A DNA stretch of 23,420 bases from the IMG/VR virus record IMGVR_UViG_3300034071_000782, positions 1-23,420 of that record; one strand, given 5' to 3'. The notes under the pieces were generated by a model. It saw only the letters and a program-made list of their open reading frames with translations, was not told the origin of the DNA and did not search any database. Below are positions 8,479 to 18,367 of this stretch, in pieces. Every line of letters begins with the position of its first letter. Position 1 is the stretch's first letter. The position numbers and the translations under genes were made by a program. Origin of the DNA: a virus.

Positions 8479-8524
8479 GAACTGTCCACCACCCTCTTTT
8501 GCCAGAGGGATTTTTTTGTATACT
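8479..8524 (+). promoter_or_regulatory. Candidate promoter with upstream element before the VWA gene
   Basis: A -10-like TATACT (5 of 6) lies at 8519-8524, with no convincing -35. The element GAACTGTCCAC at 8479-8489 starts exactly 40 bases before the first base of this hexamer. The same arrangement (GAACCGTCCAC, then TACAAT) is present before the AAA+ gene at 10942. The repeated spacing is the main reason to list it. Confidence 0.4.
8492..8517 (+). terminator. Rho-independent terminator after the small late gene
   Basis: CCCTCT at 8492-8497 pairs with AGAGGG at 8504-8509 across a 6-base loop, followed by A and seven T. A second inverted repeat (GACAGTT 8461-8467 with AACTGTC 8480-8486) lies just upstream over the stop codon. 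Confidence 0.88.
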
Positions 8525-8546: not shown

Positions 8547-10703
8547 ATGTCTGTTCGCCACGAAATCAAGTCCCAACTCGCCAAGCTGCTTGCTACCGAA
8601 GACCTTGTGGTTGAGCACAAGAAGGTGGAGACTGCTTGCTTTAATGTTCATACTCGTGTCCTGACTCTGCCGATGTGGGAGAAGGCAAGCAACACCGTGT
8701 ATGACCTTCTGGTGGGTCACGAAGTTGGTCACGCTCTCTATACACCTGATGAAGACTGGTTGAAGGAGCATAAGATTCCCCCACAGTTTGTGAATGTAGT
8801 AGAGGATGCTCGTATTGAGAAACTGATGAAGCGTCGTTATGCTGGTCTCGCCAAGACCTTCTATAACGGTTACAAGGAACTTGCCGATGATGATTTCTTC
8901 CAGATTGGTGATGATAAACTGGAAACTTATAATCTTGCCGATCGCGCAAATCTTTATTTCAAGATTGGTAACTACACAGATATTCCCATTGAGCGTGGTG
9001 AAGAGACTGAAATTATCAATCTGATTGCCGACACTGAAACCTTTGCTGATGTGCTCGTGGCAGCAGAGGAACTCTATAAGTATTGTAAACACAAGCAACA
9101 GGAAGAAACCAAGATTTCTTTGGATAATCTTGAGTCCCAGCAGAGTGGTGCTAACAATCAACCTGCTTCCGACTTTACTGACCAGCAGGAAGGTGAGAAT
9201 GACCAACCAGAGTCTGATGGTTCTGGAGGTGCTAATTCTCAAGAAAAGTCTCAACAAAGAGAACAAACTATCAAATCCCCTATTGGTGCGGAGAATATTG
9301 AAGAACCAGAAGTTAAGACTATGGATTCTCTTGAGGAAGCTCTTAAGGATCTTGTAGATAACTCTTGTTTTGAAAACGTTTATCTAGAATTGCCCGAACT
9401 AGATCTTGGTAAAATTATTGTTCCAAATTCCGAAATTCATTCTAAATGTAGTGAGAGTTGGAATGAGTTTCTTGAAAATCACAACTTCTCTAAAGAACAT
9501 ATTTTTGGTGAAGTGGACAAGCGATATCAAGAATTTAAAAAATCAGCACAAAAAGAAGTTACATATCTTGTTAAAGAGTTTGAATGTCGTAAAGCAGCTG
9601 ACTCTTATTCTCGATCGACAGTTGCTCGTACTGGTGTTTTGGACTGTTCTAAACTTCATACCTATAAGCATAATGAAGATCTTTTTAAAAAAGTAACTAC
9701 TCTTGCTGAAGGAAAAAATCATGGATTGGTGTTTATTTTAGACTGGTCTGGATCAATGTCTGATGTAATTGTCGATACTATTAAACAGTTGTTTAATCTG
9801 ATTTGGTTCTGTAAAAAAGTCTCAATTCCTTTTGAAGTATACGCATTCACTACCGATTATCCTTTGGTCAAATATAGTTCAGATGGAAAGGCAGATCTTC
9901 GTATGCTATCTTATAAAAAAAGAGATGGACTCATTCAAGTTGTAGAATGGTTTTCTTTGATGAATATGTTGACTAGTAAAACAAATTCAAAAATTCTGGA
10001 AGAACAAATGAAAAATATTTTCCGAATTGCTCATTCATTTGATCGCCATTTTTATTGTCAATATAGTGTTCCTTCTGGTCTTAGTCTTTCGGGAACGCCA
10101 TTAAATGAATCTCTAATCGCTTTGCATCAAATTCTTCCAAAATTTCAAAAAGATAATAAACTCCAAAAAGTTCAATGTGTTATTCTTACTGATGGTGAAG
10201 CTTGTAATGTTACCTATCACCGCGAAGTTAAGCGTCATTGGGAATCTGAACCATATTTGGGAACATCCCATATTGGAGCAAATGCTTACCTAAGAGATCG
10301 TAAAACTGGGAATACATATGCGTTCGATGGTAATCATCATACGATTACTGAAATTCTTCTTCAAAATCTTAGGGACAAATTCTCAAACATCAACTTTATT
10401 GGAATTCGTGTCCTTGAACCTAGGGATGCTGGTAATTTTATTCGTCGCTATTATGGTTGGTATGGAGAAGAATTGGATAAAATGATGAGCGTTTGGAAAA
10501 AAGAAAAAACAATTTCTATTAAAAAATCTTCCTACAATACTTATTTTGGATTGTCTGCAACTGCTCTTGCCCAAGATAGTGAGTTTGACATTGCGGAATG
10601 TGCTACTAAATCACAAATTAAATCCGCTTTTGTTAAAAGTCTTAGGGGTAAAAAAATGAATAAAAAAATCCTTAATGAATTTATTGAGTTGGTAGCAAAA
10701 TGA
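8547..10703 (+). CDS. HExxH-containing VWA-domain protein (CobT-like partner of the AAA+ ATPase)
   Basis: 718 residues in three parts. The N-terminal about 190 residues are a zinc-metallopeptidase-like domain with HEVGH at 58-62 and a downstream VEDARIE helix (E86), a plausible third zinc ligand; cyanophage homologues are often labelled peptidase. Residues about 190-270 are an acidic, Gln/Ser/Gly-rich linker. The C-terminal part is a von Willebrand A domain with a MIDAS motif D399-W-S401-G-S403 and D549 in ILTDGEA. The VEDARIEKL-M-RR-AGLA segment and the acidic linker plus VWA recall CobT, the partner of CobS in cobaltochelatase. MoxR-type AAA+ ATPases usually work with such VWA proteins, and one is encoded just downstream. 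The real substrate is unknown; chelatase, peptidase and remodelling roles are all possible. Codon composition changes along the gene. Confidence 0.82.
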   Translation: MSVRHEIKSQLAKLLATEDLVVEHKKVETACFNVHTRVLTLPMWEKASNTVYDLLVGHEVGHALYTPDEDWLKEHKIPPQFVNVVEDARIEKLMKRRYAGLAKTFYNGYKELADDDFFQIGDDKLETYNLADRANLYFKIGNYTDIPIERGEETEIINLIADTETFADVLVAAEELYKYCKHKQQEETKISLDNLESQQSGANNQPASDFTDQQEGENDQPESDGSGGANSQEKSQQREQTIKSPIGAENIEEPEVKTMDSLEEALKDLVDNSCFENVYLELPELDLGKIIVPNSEIHSKCSESWNEFLENHNFSKEHIFGEVDKRYQEFKKSAQKEVTYLVKEFECRKAADSYSRSTVARTGVLDCSKLHTYKHNEDLFKKVTTLAEGKNHGLVFILDWSGSMSDVIVDTIKQLFNLIWFCKKVSIPFEVYAFTTDYPLVKYSSDGKADLRMLSYKKRDGLIQVVEWFSLMNMLTSKTNSKILEEQMKNIFRIAHSFDRHFYCQYSVPSGLSLSGTPLNESLIALHQILPKFQKDNKLQKVQCVILTDGEACNVTYHREVKRHWESEPYLGTSHIGANAYLRDRKTGNTYAFDGNHHTITEILLQNLRDKFSNINFIGIRVLEPRDAGNFIRRYYGWYGEELDKMMSVWKKEKTISIKKSSYNTYFGLSATALAQDSEFDIAECATKSQIKSAFVKSLRGKKMNKKILNEFIELVAK

Positions 10704-10941: not shown

Positions 10942-12075
10942 ATGTCTCGCAAATCTTCTGTGAACGACGAAGCCCTTTTTGATAGCATCAAAGAACTTTA
11001 TGGTTCTGAAATTACTTCTGGCGATCTTAGGGGTTTCTGTGCTTCTCATGGTCTGAATTATCAGACAGTGACTCGTCGCCTTGAGCAATTTAAAACTTCT
11101 CGTGGGCGTTGGAATCTTGAGGTAACCCAAGAGCGAGTCAATGAAATTGAACGTACATTCCAGTCTCCCTCTGCTCTTCCTTCCATCGAACAAAATCTTA
11201 TTCCTGACAAAGATGATACCTTCGTCCAGTTTGGTAATTTTAAAGATGTTAAACGTATTATTCAGTCCTGTTTGTTTTATCCAACGTTCATTACGGGTCT
11301 TTCGGGTAATGGTAAAACGTTCAGTGTGGAACAAGCTTGTGCTCAACTAAAGCGTGAGATGATTCGTGTCAACATCACGATTGAGACTGATGAGGATGAT
11401 TTGATTGGTGGTTTCCGTCTGGTGAATGGTGAGACCGTTTGGCACAATGGTCCTGTTGTGGAAGCTCTGGAACGTGGTGCAATTCTGCTTCTGGATGAGA
11501 TTGACCTTGCCTCCAATAAAATCCTCTGCCTTCAGTCTGTTCTGGAAGGCAAGGGTGTCTTCCTTAAGAAAATTGGTAAGTATGTCAAACCCGCTGCGGG
11601 TTTCAACGTTGTTGCTACCGCTAACACCAAAGGTAAGGGTAGTGATGATGGTCGCTTCATCGGCACTAACGTTCTCAACGAAGCATTCCTTGAGCGTTTC
11701 CCTGTGACCTTTGAGCAGTCCTATCCTGCTCCTGCTACTGAACAGAAGATTCTGGAAGGCATTGCTCTGGACCTTGGCGTGGAAGACCGCGACTTCTGTA
11801 AGCGCCTGGTTGACTGGGCAGACATCATTCGCAAGACCTTCTACGATGGTGGTATTGATGAAATCATTAGCACCCGCCGTCTTGTCCATATCATTCGTGC
11901 TTATAGCATCTTCCAAGACAAGGCAAAGGCAATCCAAGTGTGTGTGAATCGTTTTGATGACGAAACCAAACAGTCCTTCCTGGAACTGTATGATAAAGTG
12001 GATGCTGACTTCCAAATGCCTTCTACTGGTCCTGAACTGACTGCAGAATACATTGACCAACCCACCCCATTCTGA
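10942..12075 (+). CDS. cobS: CobS-like MoxR-family AAA+ ATPase
   Basis: 377 residues. AAA+ core: Walker A GLSGNGKT at 119-126, Walker B ILLLDEID at 181-188, a sensor-1-type VVATANT at 223-229, and arginine-finger candidates in LNEAFLERF at 245-253. TETDEDDLIGGFRL near 148-160 is the loop typical of MoxR/CobS/NorQ/CbbQ proteins. The first about 60 residues, with HGLNYQTVTRRLEQF, look like a small helical DNA-binding-like or CobS N-terminal domain. Cyanophage genomes carry this gene as a known auxiliary gene called cobS (cobaltochelatase subunit). The VWA gene upstream fits a CobS/CobT-like pair; no CobN-type large subunit is in the window. The second half is markedly richer in G+C than the start. 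The C-terminal codons contain the next operon's -35 box. Confidence 0.88.
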   Translation: MSRKSSVNDEALFDSIKELYGSEITSGDLRGFCASHGLNYQTVTRRLEQFKTSRGRWNLEVTQERVNEIERTFQSPSALPSIEQNLIPDKDDTFVQFGNFKDVKRIIQSCLFYPTFITGLSGNGKTFSVEQACAQLKREMIRVNITIETDEDDLIGGFRLVNGETVWHNGPVVEALERGAILLLDEIDLASNKILCLQSVLEGKGVFLKKIGKYVKPAAGFNVVATANTKGKGSDDGRFIGTNVLNEAFLERFPVTFEQSYPAPATEQKILEGIALDLGVEDRDFCKRLVDWADIIRKTFYDGGIDEIISTRRLVHIIRAYSIFQDKAKAIQVCVNRFDDETKQSFLELYDKVDADFQMPSTGPELTAEYIDQPTPF

Positions 12076-12081
12076 TATAAT
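12053..12081 (+). promoter_or_regulatory. Strong sigma70-type promoter for the gp45-gp44-gp62-regA operon
   Basis: TTGACC (5 of 6) at 12053-12058, a 17-base spacer, and a perfect TATAAT at 12076-12081 preceded by TG and one base (12073-12074), an extended -10. It overlaps the last codons of the AAA+ gene. The expected transcription start is near 12088, about 9 bases before the ATG at 12097. This is the best sigma70 promoter in the window. Confidence 0.85.
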
Positions 12082-12083
12082 TG

Positions 12084-12108
12084 GGGGAGGTAAATTATGA
12101 CCCTCCCC
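12084..12108 (+). promoter_or_regulatory. G+C-rich hairpin enclosing the start codon at 12097
   Basis: GGGGAGG at 12084-12090 is perfectly complementary to CCTCCCC at 12102-12108; the 11-base loop contains ATG 12097-12099, and the left arm contains the Shine-Dalgarno GGAGG. Transcripts reading in from upstream would fold this and hide the ribosome site. Transcripts from the promoter at 12053-12081 start inside the left arm. Partial termination by this stem is another possibility, but the following T run is poor. Confidence 0.6.
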
Positions 12109-12642
12109 TTTATTATGGACGAACATCCTTATTCAGAAAACGATTTTAATTTAATGTCTAACTTATCAAATCAAGATTTTTGGGTTGAAGATGGAATTAG
12201 TTTAACAGGTAATCCCAATCCTTCACCAGACATGATTGTTCTTGGATCTAGACTCCCTGGTGGTATGGGTGATGACCACCTTACTTTGAATTCACCTTAC
12301 ACTTTTAATCTTAATATGAGTGAAACTAAAAATCATCTTTGGAAATACAATGAAGATAAAATCCTCAAAGATATTGAGGATTATGTGACTAGCACTTATG
12401 GTAGTCATTACTGTGGGCACAATCAAGATCACAAAGACATTCAAACTATTGATTTGATGGCAGCTAAGGATCTTGCTCCTGGTTTTTGTCAAGCAAATAT
12501 TCTTAAATATGGCAGTCGTTATGGTGACAAAGATGGTCGCAACAAACGTGACCTGATGAAAGTCATTCACTATGCCATGCTACTCCTTCACTTTGATGGG
12601 CATTATTCTCGCAAAGACAATGGTCTTTCCGAATTTCGATGA
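12097..12642 (+). CDS. DUF3310-like protein
   Basis: 181 residues. The C-terminal half fits the phage DUF3310 (SaV-like) pattern: SHYCGHNQDHKDIQTIDLM, then FCQANILKYGSRYGDKDGRNKRDLMKVIHYAMLLL, i.e. HY, an Ile-Asp element, (G/A)NxxKYxxR, a Gly-Asn loop and D(L/M)xKxxHYxxLL. This family occurs widely in phages and has been linked loosely to nucleotide metabolism, without a proven reaction. The N-terminal 90 residues are acidic, Asn-rich and of low complexity. ATG 12097 has GGGAGG six bases upstream; ATG 12115 is an alternative start. It is the first gene of the clamp/clamp-loader operon and its stop overlaps an ATG in the gp45 frame. Confidence 0.68.
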   Translation: MTLPFIMDEHPYSENDFNLMSNLSNQDFWVEDGISLTGNPNPSPDMIVLGSRLPGGMGDDHLTLNSPYTFNLNMSETKNHLWKYNEDKILKDIEDYVTSTYGSHYCGHNQDHKDIQTIDLMAAKDLAPGFCQANILKYGSRYGDKDGRNKRDLMKVIHYAMLLLHFDGHYSRKDNGLSEFR

Positions 12643-12665
12643 TTATGAATTTGAACTCCCAAACT

Positions 12666-13331
12666 ATGAAACTTTCTGATAAAACTCTGAATCTTCTAAA
12701 GAACTTTTCTAACATTAATCAATCTATTCTTTTTAAACAAGGTAGTAAGCTTCGCACCATTAGTGTTATGAAGAACATTCTTGCAGAAGCAGACATCACC
12801 GAAGAGATCCCTAAAGACTTTGGAATTTACGATCTCAATCAATTTTTGAATGGATTGGATCTACATAAAGATCCTGCACTTGACTTTACTCATGATAGTT
12901 ATGTTGTAATTCGTGAGGGTAAAACTCGTTCAAATTACTTTTTTGCTGATCCAAACGTAATTATTACTCCTCCAGAAAAAGAACTTATTCTTCCTTCTGA
13001 AGACGTATCGTTTAGCATTACTTCCGATCAACTGACTCGTCTTATTAAAGCTGCTAATATCTTCCAACTTCCTGATTTGTCTGTTATCGGTGAAGCAGGT
13101 GTTGTTAAGATTGTGGTCCGCGATAAAAAGAATGATACCTCTAATGACTTCCAAGTTATTGTGGGTGAGACTGAACTTAACTTCTGCTTTAATTTTAAAG
13201 TAGAAAATATTAAGATTATTCCTGGAACATATCAGGTCAGCATCTCAAGTAAACTTTTGTCACGTTTTGACAGTAAGGATTATGACCTGAAGTATTATAT
13301 TGCTCTGGAACCTGATTCAACATTTGGATGA
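12666..13331 (+). CDS. gp45: Sliding clamp gp45
   Basis: 221 residues from ATG 12666 (T4 gp45: 228). It is the trimeric DNA clamp that gives gp43 processivity and, in T4, activates gp55-dependent late transcription. The start MKLSDKTLNLLKNF lines up with T4 MKLSKDTTALLKNF, and the later IYDLNQFLNGLDL with T4 IYDLNGFLGILSL. The T4-type C-terminal end matches in length. I chose 12666 because of this alignment; the frame is open to ATG 12639, which overlaps the previous stop as ATGA and would add nine residues, so that start remains possible. Neither has a clear Shine-Dalgarno. The stop overlaps the next gene as ATGA. Confidence 0.93.
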   Translation: MKLSDKTLNLLKNFSNINQSILFKQGSKLRTISVMKNILAEADITEEIPKDFGIYDLNQFLNGLDLHKDPALDFTHDSYVVIREGKTRSNYFFADPNVIITPPEKELILPSEDVSFSITSDQLTRLIKAANIFQLPDLSVIGEAGVVKIVVRDKKNDTSNDFQVIVGETELNFCFNFKVENIKIIPGTYQVSISSKLLSRFDSKDYDLKYYIALEPDSTFG

Positions 13332-13840
13332 ACATTTTTGTAACCTCTCCTTGGCCTGCTGAAAGTGCTGTCTGTCTCCCTGATAAACACGTTGTCAAAA
13401 TGCCATTAGAGTGCTGTCAGATGCTCTCTATCGTGGCATCTGACAAATGGGGACATGGATACGGAACTCTTCCAAAGTCTGATGGAACGCCATACAAGAC
13501 AGAGAAGGGAGCATTCCGTAATCATCCATGTACAAAGTGGGCAATGGAATCAATCCACAATGCCTACTGGTTAATTAAGTGGGGACTTAACTTGTCAGAT
13601 GAGTACGCCCTTCGCTATAATAAGATTCACTCTTGTTATAAAACACTTGTGGATGCTTATTATCTTTTTCCTAAAGGAAAGATTACTGAAGTAACACCGT
13701 TTGCGAGAGCGATGCCTGATGAGTATAAACTTGACACAAGCATTGACACTTTTACTGCTTACAAGATGTATATCGCATCCAAATCTTGGGTTGCATCTAA
13801 TTATCTTCGTATGCCAGAACGAAAACCTGATTGGGTATAA
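13328..13840 (+). CDS. Conserved phage protein of unknown function between gp45 and gp44
   Basis: 170 residues. Conserved-looking blocks: MNIFVTSPWPAESAVCLPDKHVVKM at the N-terminus, HPCTKWAMESIHNAYWLIKW near 66-85, and LSDEYALRYNKIHSCYKT near 88-105, with a Lys/Pro-rich C-terminus (MPERKPDWV). I recall similar phage proteins with the order DxxxVxKMxxExxQML, HPCxxWxxxxxxNYxWL, and EYxxRxxKxH, without an established role. The helical arrangement slightly recalls T4 endonuclease V (pyrimidine-dimer glycosylase), but I cannot support that identity. It starts with an ATGA overlap on gp45 and precedes gp44 by six bases, so it is co-expressed with the clamp. Confidence 0.7.
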   Translation: MNIFVTSPWPAESAVCLPDKHVVKMPLECCQMLSIVASDKWGHGYGTLPKSDGTPYKTEKGAFRNHPCTKWAMESIHNAYWLIKWGLNLSDEYALRYNKIHSCYKTLVDAYYLFPKGKITEVTPFARAMPDEYKLDTSIDTFTAYKMYIASKSWVASNYLRMPERKPDWV

Positions 13841-13846
13841 AAAATT

Positions 13847-14794
13847 ATGAGTCGTGATGAATTTTTGTGGGTTGAGAAATATCGCCCCAAAACAATTGAA
13901 GATTGTATTCTCCCTGAGAATATTAAGAAAACATTTACAGACTTTCTAAATAAAGGCGAAGTGCCAAACTTGCTTCTTGCTGGTCCTGCTGGATGTGGCA
14001 AGACAACGGTGGCAAAAGCACTCTGTAATGAATTGGGAGTAGATGTTTATGTCATTAACGGATCCGACGAAGGTAGATTCCTCGATACTGTCCGAAACAA
14101 TGCGAAGAACTTCGCTTCGACCGTCTCACTTTCGTCAACTGCTAAACACAAAGTCATCATCATTGATGAGGCAGATAACACAACAAACGACGTACAACTC
14201 CTCCTACGTGCTTCTATTGAGGAGTTTGCTAACAACTGTAGATTCATCTTTACCTGTAATTACAAGAACAAAATCATTGAACCACTCCATTCTCGATGTG
14301 CAGTCGTCGAATTTGGAATTAAGTCAAAGGAAAAACCAAAACTTGCTGCAGCATTTTTTACTCGCCTTCAAGACATCCTTCAAAAAGAGTCAATTCAATA
14401 TGACCAAAAAGTACTGATTGAATTGGTTAATAAGCATTTTCCAGATTGGAGGCGAGTACTTAATGAGTGCCAACGTTATGCTGTTGGTGGAAAAATTGAT
14501 ACAGGAATCCTGGCATCATTCTCTGATACTAATGTAAATGAACTTATTAAAAATCTCAAAACTAAAAACTTTACTGAAGTCCGAAAGTGGGTGGTCGGGA
14601 ACTTGGATAACGATGCTTCAAGTTTACTTCGTAGGATTTATGACTCCTCTCTTGATGATCTTTCACCCCAATCTATTCCTGCTGCCGTTCTTATTGTTGC
14701 TAAGTACCAATACCAATGTGCATTCGTGGCTGACCAAGAAATAAATCTTCTTGCTGCTCTTACTGAAATTATGGTGGAGTGTGAGTTTAAATGA
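13847..14794 (+). CDS. gp44: Clamp loader large subunit gp44
   Basis: 315 residues (T4 gp44: 319). AAA+ ATPase that, as four copies with one gp62, opens and loads the gp45 clamp. Motifs: the RFC-type N-terminus FLWVEKYRPKTIEDCILP, Walker A GPAGCGKT at 46-53, Walker B with DEAD at 107-110, a sensor-1 TCN near 136-138, and the SRC motif at 149-151 carrying the arginine finger R150. The remainder is the helical collar region. The stop overlaps the next gene as ATGA. In T4, gp62 follows directly; here it is separated by about 2.75 kb of other genes. Confidence 0.97.
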   Translation: MSRDEFLWVEKYRPKTIEDCILPENIKKTFTDFLNKGEVPNLLLAGPAGCGKTTVAKALCNELGVDVYVINGSDEGRFLDTVRNNAKNFASTVSLSSTAKHKVIIIDEADNTTNDVQLLLRASIEEFANNCRFIFTCNYKNKIIEPLHSRCAVVEFGIKSKEKPKLAAAFFTRLQDILQKESIQYDQKVLIELVNKHFPDWRRVLNECQRYAVGGKIDTGILASFSDTNVNELIKNLKTKNFTEVRKWVVGNLDNDASSLLRRIYDSSLDDLSPQSIPAAVLIVAKYQYQCAFVADQEINLLAALTEIMVECEFK

Positions 14795-16821: not shown

Positions 16822-17547
16822 TTGCTTACCTACGAATATAAATTCACACCACATATTAATCCAGGTATACTTGAGTTTCAATTATACAAATATCATATTG
16901 ATTTACTTTGGTCTTATATCAAAAAGTCTACTGTTAATGATGGGTGGATACTTGATAAAGATAATAACGTTGTTGAAAGGGGACCTTATCAACAATGGGC
17001 TTTGTATGATACAACTAAACTTTTTGAGTCTGAAGTTTTAATTCCAGCAGTTAATTCTTATATTAGTCGTTGGGGATATCCAATGAGTTGTAAAACAACT
17101 CATTATCCAATTCCTTGCCTTAATCGCTTTTGGACCAGAATTTCAAGAGCAGGAGAATATCAACCAATACATAATCACCAATCTATTTGGAGCTTTATTA
17201 TTTGGATGAAGATACCTTTTGAATATCAGGATGAGCAAACTGAAGAACTTGCAGAATTATATCCAGAATCTGGAAATATGACTATTTGTTATCTTGATTC
17301 TGTTGGAAGAATTCAAAAAAAACCCTATAGATTGGGTAAGAATTATGAAGGAACTATGATTTTATTCCCTGGAGAATTCAATCATATTGTTTATCCATAT
17401 CATACTAGTGACGAATATCGAATTAGTATAGCTGGAGATGTTGCAATTGATAGTATGCAACACTTAGAACCATTACCCACAAATACTTTTAATGATTTTA
17501 AGTATGGAAATTTCTATAATGCTGAAAACAATAATGAAGTAAATTAA
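16822..17547 (+). CDS. Putative 2OG-Fe(II) oxygenase, TTG start
   Basis: 241 residues. Resembles the phage/cyanophage family of putative 2-oxoglutarate and Fe(II)-dependent oxygenases: the block NRFWTRISRAGEYQPIHNHQS near 101-121, an SFIIWMKIP strand, and GTMILFPGEFNHIVYPY near 177-193, then DEYRISIAGDV with R200 as the likely 2-oxoglutarate-binding arginine. H117 or H119 and H188 are metal-ligand candidates; the expected HxD/E reads H-N-H, so the second ligand is uncertain. The start is TTG 16822 because AGGAG at 16810-16814 lies seven bases upstream and no ATG is near. Substrate unknown (hydroxylation of protein, nucleotide or sugar). The stop overlaps gp62 by one base. Confidence 0.75.
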   Translation: MLTYEYKFTPHINPGILEFQLYKYHIDLLWSYIKKSTVNDGWILDKDNNVVERGPYQQWALYDTTKLFESEVLIPAVNSYISRWGYPMSCKTTHYPIPCLNRFWTRISRAGEYQPIHNHQSIWSFIIWMKIPFEYQDEQTEELAELYPESGNMTICYLDSVGRIQKKPYRLGKNYEGTMILFPGEFNHIVYPYHTSDEYRISIAGDVAIDSMQHLEPLPTNTFNDFKYGNFYNAENNNEVN

Positions 17548-17930
17548 TGGAATTAAAAGATTGGTTAAATTCAATTAATCACACAAAAGATAATCTAGTA
17601 TCTGATGATCCAACTTTAATTAAAAGTTATCCACCTTATATTATTAATAGGTGTCTATCATCTCATATTGACGCAATTTTTTTTGCAAATGAAATGAATA
17701 AAAGTCATTTTCTAGACAAGGAACTGCAATATTCTTTTTATCTAAATAGTTTGAGGAAAAAGAAGAGATTCTCTCCTTGGCTCCGAAAAGATAAAGTTAA
17801 CGACCTTGATATTGTAAAACAATACTATAGTTATAGTAATGATAAAGCAATGCAAGCACTGAAAATTTTATCTAGAGAACAACTCGATTTTATTAAACAA
17901 AGACTTGATACTGGTGGAAAGAACAAATGA
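17547..17930 (+). CDS. gp62: Clamp loader small subunit gp62
   Basis: 127 residues, shorter than T4 gp62 (187). It matches the cyanophage gp62 pattern as I remember it: MELKDWLNSIN at the start, YPPYIINRCLSSHIDAIFFANEMN near 29-52, QYSFYLNSLRKKKRFSPWLRK near 60-80 and DIVKQYYSYSNDKAMQALKIL near 88-108. gp62 has no ATPase motifs; with four gp44 it forms the clamp loader. It starts with TAATG coupling to the oxygenase and ends with ATGA coupling to regA, the T4 order 62-regA. A late-box-like CTAAATA lies inside at 17742-17748. Confidence 0.9.
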   Translation: MELKDWLNSINHTKDNLVSDDPTLIKSYPPYIINRCLSSHIDAIFFANEMNKSHFLDKELQYSFYLNSLRKKKRFSPWLRKDKVNDLDIVKQYYSYSNDKAMQALKILSREQLDFIKQRLDTGGKNK

Positions 17931-18367
17931 CTAATAATACTATTGAACCTCAGGTTAATTGGACACCCAATATGATGGTGGAAGTTATTCTTAATGAACC
18001 TGACGACTTCCTTAAAGTTCGTGAAACTTTAACTCGCATCGGAGTTGCATCGCGCAAGGAGAAAAAACTCTATCAATCTTGCCATATTCTACATAAGCAA
18101 GGTAGATATTATATTACCCACTTTAAAGAATTGTTTGCTTTAGATGGCAAACACGCAAATCTTACTGTCAATGATATTCAAAGAAGGAATAGAATTGCAA
18201 GACTTCTTTCGGATTGGGGTCTGATTAGTGTTGTGAATGGAGACTCTATTAGTGACATTGCACCACTTAATCAAATTAAAGTTCTCTCTTATAAAGATAA
18301 AGGAGACTGGATTCTAGAACAAAAATATAATATTGGGTCTAAGAAGAAACCATCTGACGATGAGTAA
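17927..18367 (+). CDS. regA: RegA translational repressor
   Basis: 146 residues (T4 RegA: 122). RegA binds start regions of many early phage mRNAs and blocks ribosome entry, including those of clamp genes in T4. Strong match: EPDDFLKVRETLTRIGVASRKEKKLYQSCHILHKQGRYYITHFKELF against T4 KPEDFLKVKETLTRMGIAN and LYQSCHILQKKGLYYIVHFKEM, then LLSDWGLI and EQKYNIGS near the end. Relative to T4 it has about 15 extra N-terminal residues and a short acidic C-terminal tail. ATG 17927 overlaps the gp62 stop as ATGA; ATG 17972 or 17975 would give the T4-length N-terminus. A strong terminator follows 21 bases after the stop. Confidence 0.96.
   Translation: MTNNTIEPQVNWTPNMMVEVILNEPDDFLKVRETLTRIGVASRKEKKLYQSCHILHKQGRYYITHFKELFALDGKHANLTVNDIQRRNRIARLLSDWGLISVVNGDSISDIAPLNQIKVLSYKDKGDWILEQKYNIGSKKKPSDDE

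Follow-up and report, generated by a model that had tools for sequence, protein, structure and literature searches.

A Probable Composite Promoter-Terminator with the Predicted RNA Start inside the Hairpin Stem at the cobS End of T4-like Cyanophages

The element at the cobS end

At the end of the cobS gene of T4-like cyanophages, a sigma-70-type promoter and a GC-rich hairpin are found in one fixed layout, and the predicted RNA start lies inside the left arm of the hairpin. Judged from sequence, the element would be a composite terminator-promoter that stops read-through from cobS while the RNA of the embedded promoter escapes. I give this reading a probability of about two in three. The topology itself, in which the start is predicted inside the left arm and only read-through RNA should be able to fold, is well supported because the promoter is conserved, the A at the predicted +1 is conserved, and the stem covaries.

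The window analyzed here is the whole 23.4 kb record of a T4-like cyanophage; the named phages closest to it are DSL-LC03 and S-SRM01, both freshwater Synechococcus phages. Viral contigs were scanned with DUF3310 and CobS proteins, which gave 160 loci and 121 distinct cobS-end junctions. In 105 of the 121 junctions (hereafter "standard"), the promoter and the hairpin have the one fixed layout, the left arm following the -10 by 1-3 bases in most of them. The features of the window are listed below.

10942..12075, + strand: cobS-like AAA+ ATPase gene, upstream of the element (AAA_5, 1.6e-18; CbbQ_C, 3e-5; CobS/MoxR annotation in isolates)
12053..12058, + strand: -35 element TTGACC, within the cobS coding sequence (TTG in 105/105 standard junctions; spacer of 17 in all)
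12073..12081, + strand: extended -10 TGA-TATAAT, overlapping the cobS stop codon (TG in 105/105, T-A-N-A-A-T in 105/105)
12083..12090, + strand: hairpin left arm (GGGGGAGG), also the G-rich promoter discriminator (covariation)
12088, + strand: predicted transcription start (+1), placed from the -10 position (A in 103/105 junctions)
12091..12101, + strand: hairpin loop with the non-conserved ATG 12097 (loop ATG in frame in 22/73 relatives)
12102..12109, + strand: hairpin right arm (CCTCCCCT; covariation)
12109..12114, + strand: T-rich tail TTTATT, proposed termination site (tail T enrichment in relatives)
12115..12642, + strand: DUF3310 gene from the conserved ATG 12115 (PF11753; equivalent start annotated in isolates)
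12639..13331, + strand: gp45 sliding clamp (PF09116, PF02916)
13847..14794, + strand: gp44 clamp loader large subunit (PF21328)
17547..17930, + strand: clamp loader small subunit, gp62 type (PF16790)
17927..18367, + strand: RegA translational regulator (PF01818, 1.3e-44)

The TGA stop codon of cobS (12073-12075) doubles as part of the extended -10, and the DUF3310 ORF can be extended upstream to ATG 12097. Since the start of gp45 overlaps with the stop of DUF3310, the two genes are probably on one shared transcript. A clamp/clamp-loader/RegA operon had been proposed downstream by the first-pass annotation, and the domain matches identified its members (gp45 at 12639, gp44 at 13847, the small subunit at 17547, and RegA at 17927). 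A possible internal promoter, TTGTCA-18-TATAAT (11/12), lies at positions 13592-13621, upstream of gp44 and inside the gene for the pyrimidine dimer glycosylase.

Conservation of the promoter

The promoter TTGACC-17-TGATATAAT spans positions 12053-12081. Its TATAAT (12076-12081) lies 17 bases after TTGACC and directly after the TGA, and the predicted +1 is at 12088. The promoter scores 11/12 and is the top site with a TG extension within 9 kb. The first-pass annotation had placed a near-consensus promoter at this position with a start near 12088, and both are conserved across the standard junctions. The -10 is TA(T/G/A)AAT in all 105, and the base at the predicted +1 is an A in 103. At the -35, the Asp codon is GAC in 90 cases and GAT in 1, as against 682 and 1480 in the remainder of cobS. 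The codon preceding this GAC has a T as its third base in 102/102 cases, while 46% of comparable cobS codons elsewhere have it. Since synonymous sites are fixed where the -35 is coding sequence, the codon usage shows that the -35 is under selection at the DNA level. With -35 and -10 hexamers, a spacer within the 16-18 base range, and this DNA-level selection, the site belongs to the sigma-70-type promoters.

In three loci (L053, L057, and L110), the promoter lies wholly or partly past the cobS stop codon, and the hairpin has shifted along with it to a place 1-2 bases from the -10. Thus, the hairpin is, by its position, tied to the promoter and not to the stop codon. The marine phages S-SM2 and S-SKS1 and the contig L056 have kept the promoter without the hairpin. 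Thus, as these loci indicate, the hairpin is not essential to the promoter. The cobS end of S-SM2 (L165:1645-1665) and S-SKS1 (L167 near 1665-1690) has TTGACG-17-TATAAT, and the next gene has its annotated or first ATG at or before the predicted RNA start, suggesting a leaderless mRNA or a misannotated start.

The 16 non-standard junctions comprise three with the hairpin inside a longer automatic stem, two with one mismatch, seven with a different hairpin and a T4-type late box, and four without a hairpin. In the group of seven (L023, L030, L069, L129, L136, L138, and L149), the sigma-70 promoter and the GC hairpin are replaced, just past the cobS stop codon, by a hairpin of ~15 bp (CTGAAAAGTGTTATT/AATAGCACTTTTCAG) whose loop holds the T4-type late box TATAAATA; that of L069 was read by eye. 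This hairpin with TATAAATA in the loop closely resembles the arrangement of T4 e and soc. The element at the cobS end is evidently selected.

Covariation of the hairpin

The stem pairs positions 12084-12090 with 12102-12108 in 7 perfect pairs, or 8 counting the G-U pair 12083/12109, and the loop has 11 bases with ATG 12097 inside. The window hairpin is predicted to fold at -13.7 kcal/mol, and an RNA beginning at 12088 at only -1.5. Since the window hairpin alone is unremarkable for its own composition (z -1.56), relatives were needed to decide. No Rfam covariance model matched positions 11700-12700 up to E 1.

The first-pass annotation had described a 7-bp GC-rich stem with ATG 12097 in the loop and had proposed a comparison of this junction in related cyanophages for covarying stem bases. 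The coordinates are correct, the pairing in relatives is beyond chance, and the stem covaries. Among the core pairs of 82 junctions whose element sequences are distinct, 522 of 574 are Watson-Crick pairs, each locus being counted in its own stem register, while shuffling the letters of the right halves left 318. Re-dealing the right halves among the loci gave a mean of 464 (sd 6.1, max 481, 500 trials), a comparison that ignores part of the shared ancestry; the safer figure is the number of changes on the cobS tree, where the -1 pair (A-T in 36/82 and G-C in 39/82) has 25 inferred parsimony changes on each side. The arms changing together include GGGGAAGG/CCTTCCCC, GGGGGAGG/CCTCCCCC, GAGGAGG/CCTCCTC, and GGGGAGATA/TATCTCC(T)C. 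U-G pairs are frequent in the stem (43/82 at one position), and the stem is conserved as RNA. The loop length among the relatives ranges from 4 to 14.

A probable terminator and its predicted escape by the embedded promoter

The hairpin is followed by a T-rich tail. Thus, it is most likely an intrinsic terminator for cobS read-through, one that the RNA of the embedded promoter is predicted to escape. In the 105 relatives, the frequencies of T at tail positions 1-5 are 85%, 83%, 90%, 67%, and 77%, compared with roughly 25-50% further downstream, and the enrichment fades past position 8. Of the two parts of an intrinsic terminator, the GC-rich RNA hairpin is present (-13.7 kcal/mol in the window, with covarying arms), and the U-rich tract right after the stem is found in the relatives and is weak in the window (TTTATT). 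The d'Aubenton-type score is -8.8 for the window, with a median of -4.8 and values above 0 in 41% of the relatives, in line with a terminator of moderate strength. Because the TTTATT tail is short and the score is -8.8, termination may be partial in the window.

The read-through segment has a median folding energy of -12.9 kcal/mol in the 105 relatives, versus -2.1 when the RNA begins at +1. When the start is moved to -3, -2, -1, and 0 relative to the predicted +1, the medians are -10.1, -7.7, -4.3, and -2.1 kcal/mol, and an RNA begun 1 or 2 bases after the predicted +1 has nearly no folding energy. By these calculations, the escape model depends on where the RNA really starts, since ~-10 kcal/mol of stem would remain with a start 3 bases upstream of the predicted one.

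The DNA-level conservation of the promoter, the stem covariation, the T-rich tail, the non-conserved loop ATG, and the predicted start position are all shown by the sequences; the nucleotide at which the RNA really starts, the release of RNA at the tail, and what the element is for I infer as follows. A polymerase reading through from cobS would transcribe both arms. The read-through RNA would form the GC-rich hairpin followed by the U-rich tract, and a fraction of it would terminate just upstream of ATG 12115. The sigma-70-type promoter, with its -35 in the cobS end and its extended -10 on the cobS stop codon, would start RNA at ~12088 in the middle of the left arm. This RNA would lack half of the stem and pass the terminator, feeding DUF3310-gp45 and probably also the clamp-loader and RegA genes. 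The clamp operon may in this way have its own control at a boundary without room between a terminator and a start codon.

Alternative functions of the hairpin

The first-pass annotation had likewise placed the RNA start inside the left arm and had reserved the full stem for read-through RNA, and this part is supported. It had further proposed that folding of the read-through RNA conceals ATG 12097 and its Shine-Dalgarno sequence, so that only the promoter-specific RNA is translated, as for T4 e and soc. In the window, ATG 12097 is in frame and a GGAGG in the left arm has a good spacing to it, and the topology equals that of the T4 cases reviewed in PMC3014915. A hairpin with that function would be expected to keep the loop ATG in frame. 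However, the loop ATG shares the reading frame of the downstream DUF3310 gene in only 22/73 loci, where chance gives one third. A loop GTG is in frame in 9/40, and many loops have neither. Thus, the hiding is unsupported, and a translation switch at ATG 12097 as the main function is rejected on this frame test. What the relatives share is an ATG in frame past the hairpin, and DSL-LC03 and S-SRM01 have their annotated start at the position of ATG 12115. Accordingly placed past the hairpin, ATG 12115 is the conserved start, although translation may initiate at ATG 12097 in this single phage. In addition, only AGG of the Shine-Dalgarno sequence would remain in the promoter RNA. The element is found ahead of differing N-termini and apparently different genes and keeps the T tract there; thus, termination fits better than translation control. 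The element does not belong to the T4 e/soc type with a sequestered start codon or Shine-Dalgarno sequence, and I regard the hidden start as unlikely.

A role of the hairpin in RNA processing or stability, as an endonuclease site or a protector of the cobS mRNA 3′ end, with the promoter overlap merely saving space, is improbable. Conservation of the stem as RNA with its frequent U-G pairs would suit such a role, and so would a tail weaker than those of classical terminators. Nevertheless, the T-rich tail is conserved while the flanking bases are not, and canonical TTTTTT tails occur in the same layout elsewhere.

The steep change of the folding energy with the start position (-10.1 to -2.1 over -3 to 0) and a +1 that is nearly always an A beside a G run would also fit an attenuator based on start-site choice. 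RNAs started at the upstream G residues would keep the stem and terminate early, those started at A12088 would escape, and nucleotide pools or the infection stage would set the output. In the pyrC-type start-site switching of E. coli, a few-base difference in the RNA start decides whether a 5′ hairpin forms; unlike the cobS-end element, it acts on translation and on the one promoter's own RNA. The strong conservation of the A at the standard position suggests one start, and this attenuator is very improbable. A DNA palindrome serving as an operator for a repressor of the promoter would explain an inverted repeat directly downstream of the -10, but it is scarcely tenable and was disfavoured, as the arms vary and covary without a fixed site, the loop length is not constant, and the common T-G pairs break a DNA palindrome.

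Relation to known elements

PeSLs are composite promoter-terminator motifs in T4-like phages (Arbiol et al. 2010; Comeau et al. 2014, as cited in PMC4503421). As described through that citing article, the likeness to the cobS-end element lies in a sigma-70-type promoter fused to a terminator stem-loop at gene boundaries of T4-related phages, and a promoter and a terminator stem-loop are indeed combined here in one small element. In RB49 (115005, 121708, and other sites), I found strong promoters with GC inverted repeats filling the spacer between the -35 and the -10 (TTGACAGGGGATCGGCGATCCCCTATACT). These are probably the published PeSLs, an equation that is my own. The RB49 repeats lie in the spacer, whereas the cobS-end hairpin follows the -10, and the predicted RNA start falls within it. 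Its geometry thus differs from that of RB49, and the cobS-end element would be a composite promoter-terminator of a new geometry with the RNA start inside the stem. For S-PM2, one cyanophage study describes an early promoter resembling those of the host as well as separate stem-loops, and it argues against PeSL-driven gene acquisition.

In T4 e, soc, 49, and I-TevI, the promoter or the RNA start lies inside an inhibitory hairpin (reviewed in PMC3014915). The read-through RNA folds, and the 5′ strand of the stem is missing from the RNA of the embedded promoter, as is predicted here. However, the T4 hairpin masks a late gene's ribosome binding site, while the conserved start codon at the cobS end is outside the hairpin, after the T-rich tail. 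Also, the cobS-end promoter is of the sigma-70 type, with late boxes at the same place in some relatives. Re-initiation near a terminator by a polymerase staying on the DNA (PMC6978380) is another likeness, since a terminator beside a promoter could hand the polymerase to the new promoter; that work differs in being in vitro and on separate elements, not overlapping ones in phages. The literature search returned no described case of a phage promoter starting inside a terminator, and novelty relative to the original PeSL papers and the Syn9 transcriptome is only partly assessable.

The same layout at other junctions

A start-inside-terminator layout was also seen at the psbD junction, which is unrelated to cobS (L216:48260-48360, that is, Syn9 168,260-168,360, and L217-L223). 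The psbD ends of Syn9, S-RSM4, S-PM2, and others have a TGA stop codon followed by TATAAT or TATACT; 0-2 bases after the box comes a terminator whose T tract is canonical, and the ATG of the next gene, which varies, comes last. S-RIM2 and S-H25 have the late box AATAAATA instead of the -10. Among 75 distinct metagenomic psbD ends, a -10 lies directly ahead of the stem in 11 and a late box in 2. Reading the sequences of L348, L392, and L397 revealed a promoter-like sequence before such hairpins at shifted places.

At terminators outside the cobS and psbD junctions, a -10 ends 1-3 bases before the stem in 22 cases, versus ~1-2 per position further upstream. Beyond cobS, TATAAT is modestly overrepresented ahead of terminators: it occurs there 33 times, compared with a median of 12 and a maximum of 21 for permuted motifs that are not shifted copies of it. 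Outside the cobS family, a -35 of at least 4/6 at a spacing of 16-18 accompanies 18/33 of such -10 boxes, versus 20/165 control positions. Many of these non-cobS cases are homologous; they fall into 23 rough families, and the independent cases are fewer. In four whole genomes, 4 starts lie inside left arms, with ~0.3 expected, and 3 of the 4 are the cobS junction. Scanning viral contigs for the pattern yielded 80 loci, at least 79 of them the cobS junction, and thus no independent cases.

I put forward only tentatively that T4-like cyanophages share a general device for gene boundaries, with host-type and late promoters that start RNA inside a terminator stem and give each downstream gene a private start without space between a terminator and a start codon. 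A junction could swap a host-type promoter for a late promoter with the logic kept, and the start position in the G run may also tune termination. Such a device would explain how packed cyanophage genomes separate transcription units without intergenic room. It would also offer a simple way to locate promoters and terminators overlooked by standard annotation, each hiding the other. Exact RNA starts are predicted: A12088 here, and ~base 168,329 of Syn9, between psbD and gp219.

The same phages have another register, in which the -35 is in the hairpin loop, the T tract is in the spacer, and the -10 comes right after; 39 boxes lie 4-11 bases after the stem, with 10.5 expected. Such fused terminator-promoters are at DSL-LC03 170458 and 142108, S-SRM01 149843 and 186413, and G001 112639, 97107, and 81524, two of them just upstream of cobS. 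In S-SRM01, G001, and DSL-LC03, the T tracts of terminators run straight into late boxes (stem-TTTTTTTATAAATA) in 14 cases, with ~0.6 expected. In the window, a terminator at 8492-8524 (CCCTCTTTTGCCAGAGGG-ATTTTTTTG) is immediately followed by TGTATACT, placing a -10-like box after the T tract and ahead of the gene at 8547.
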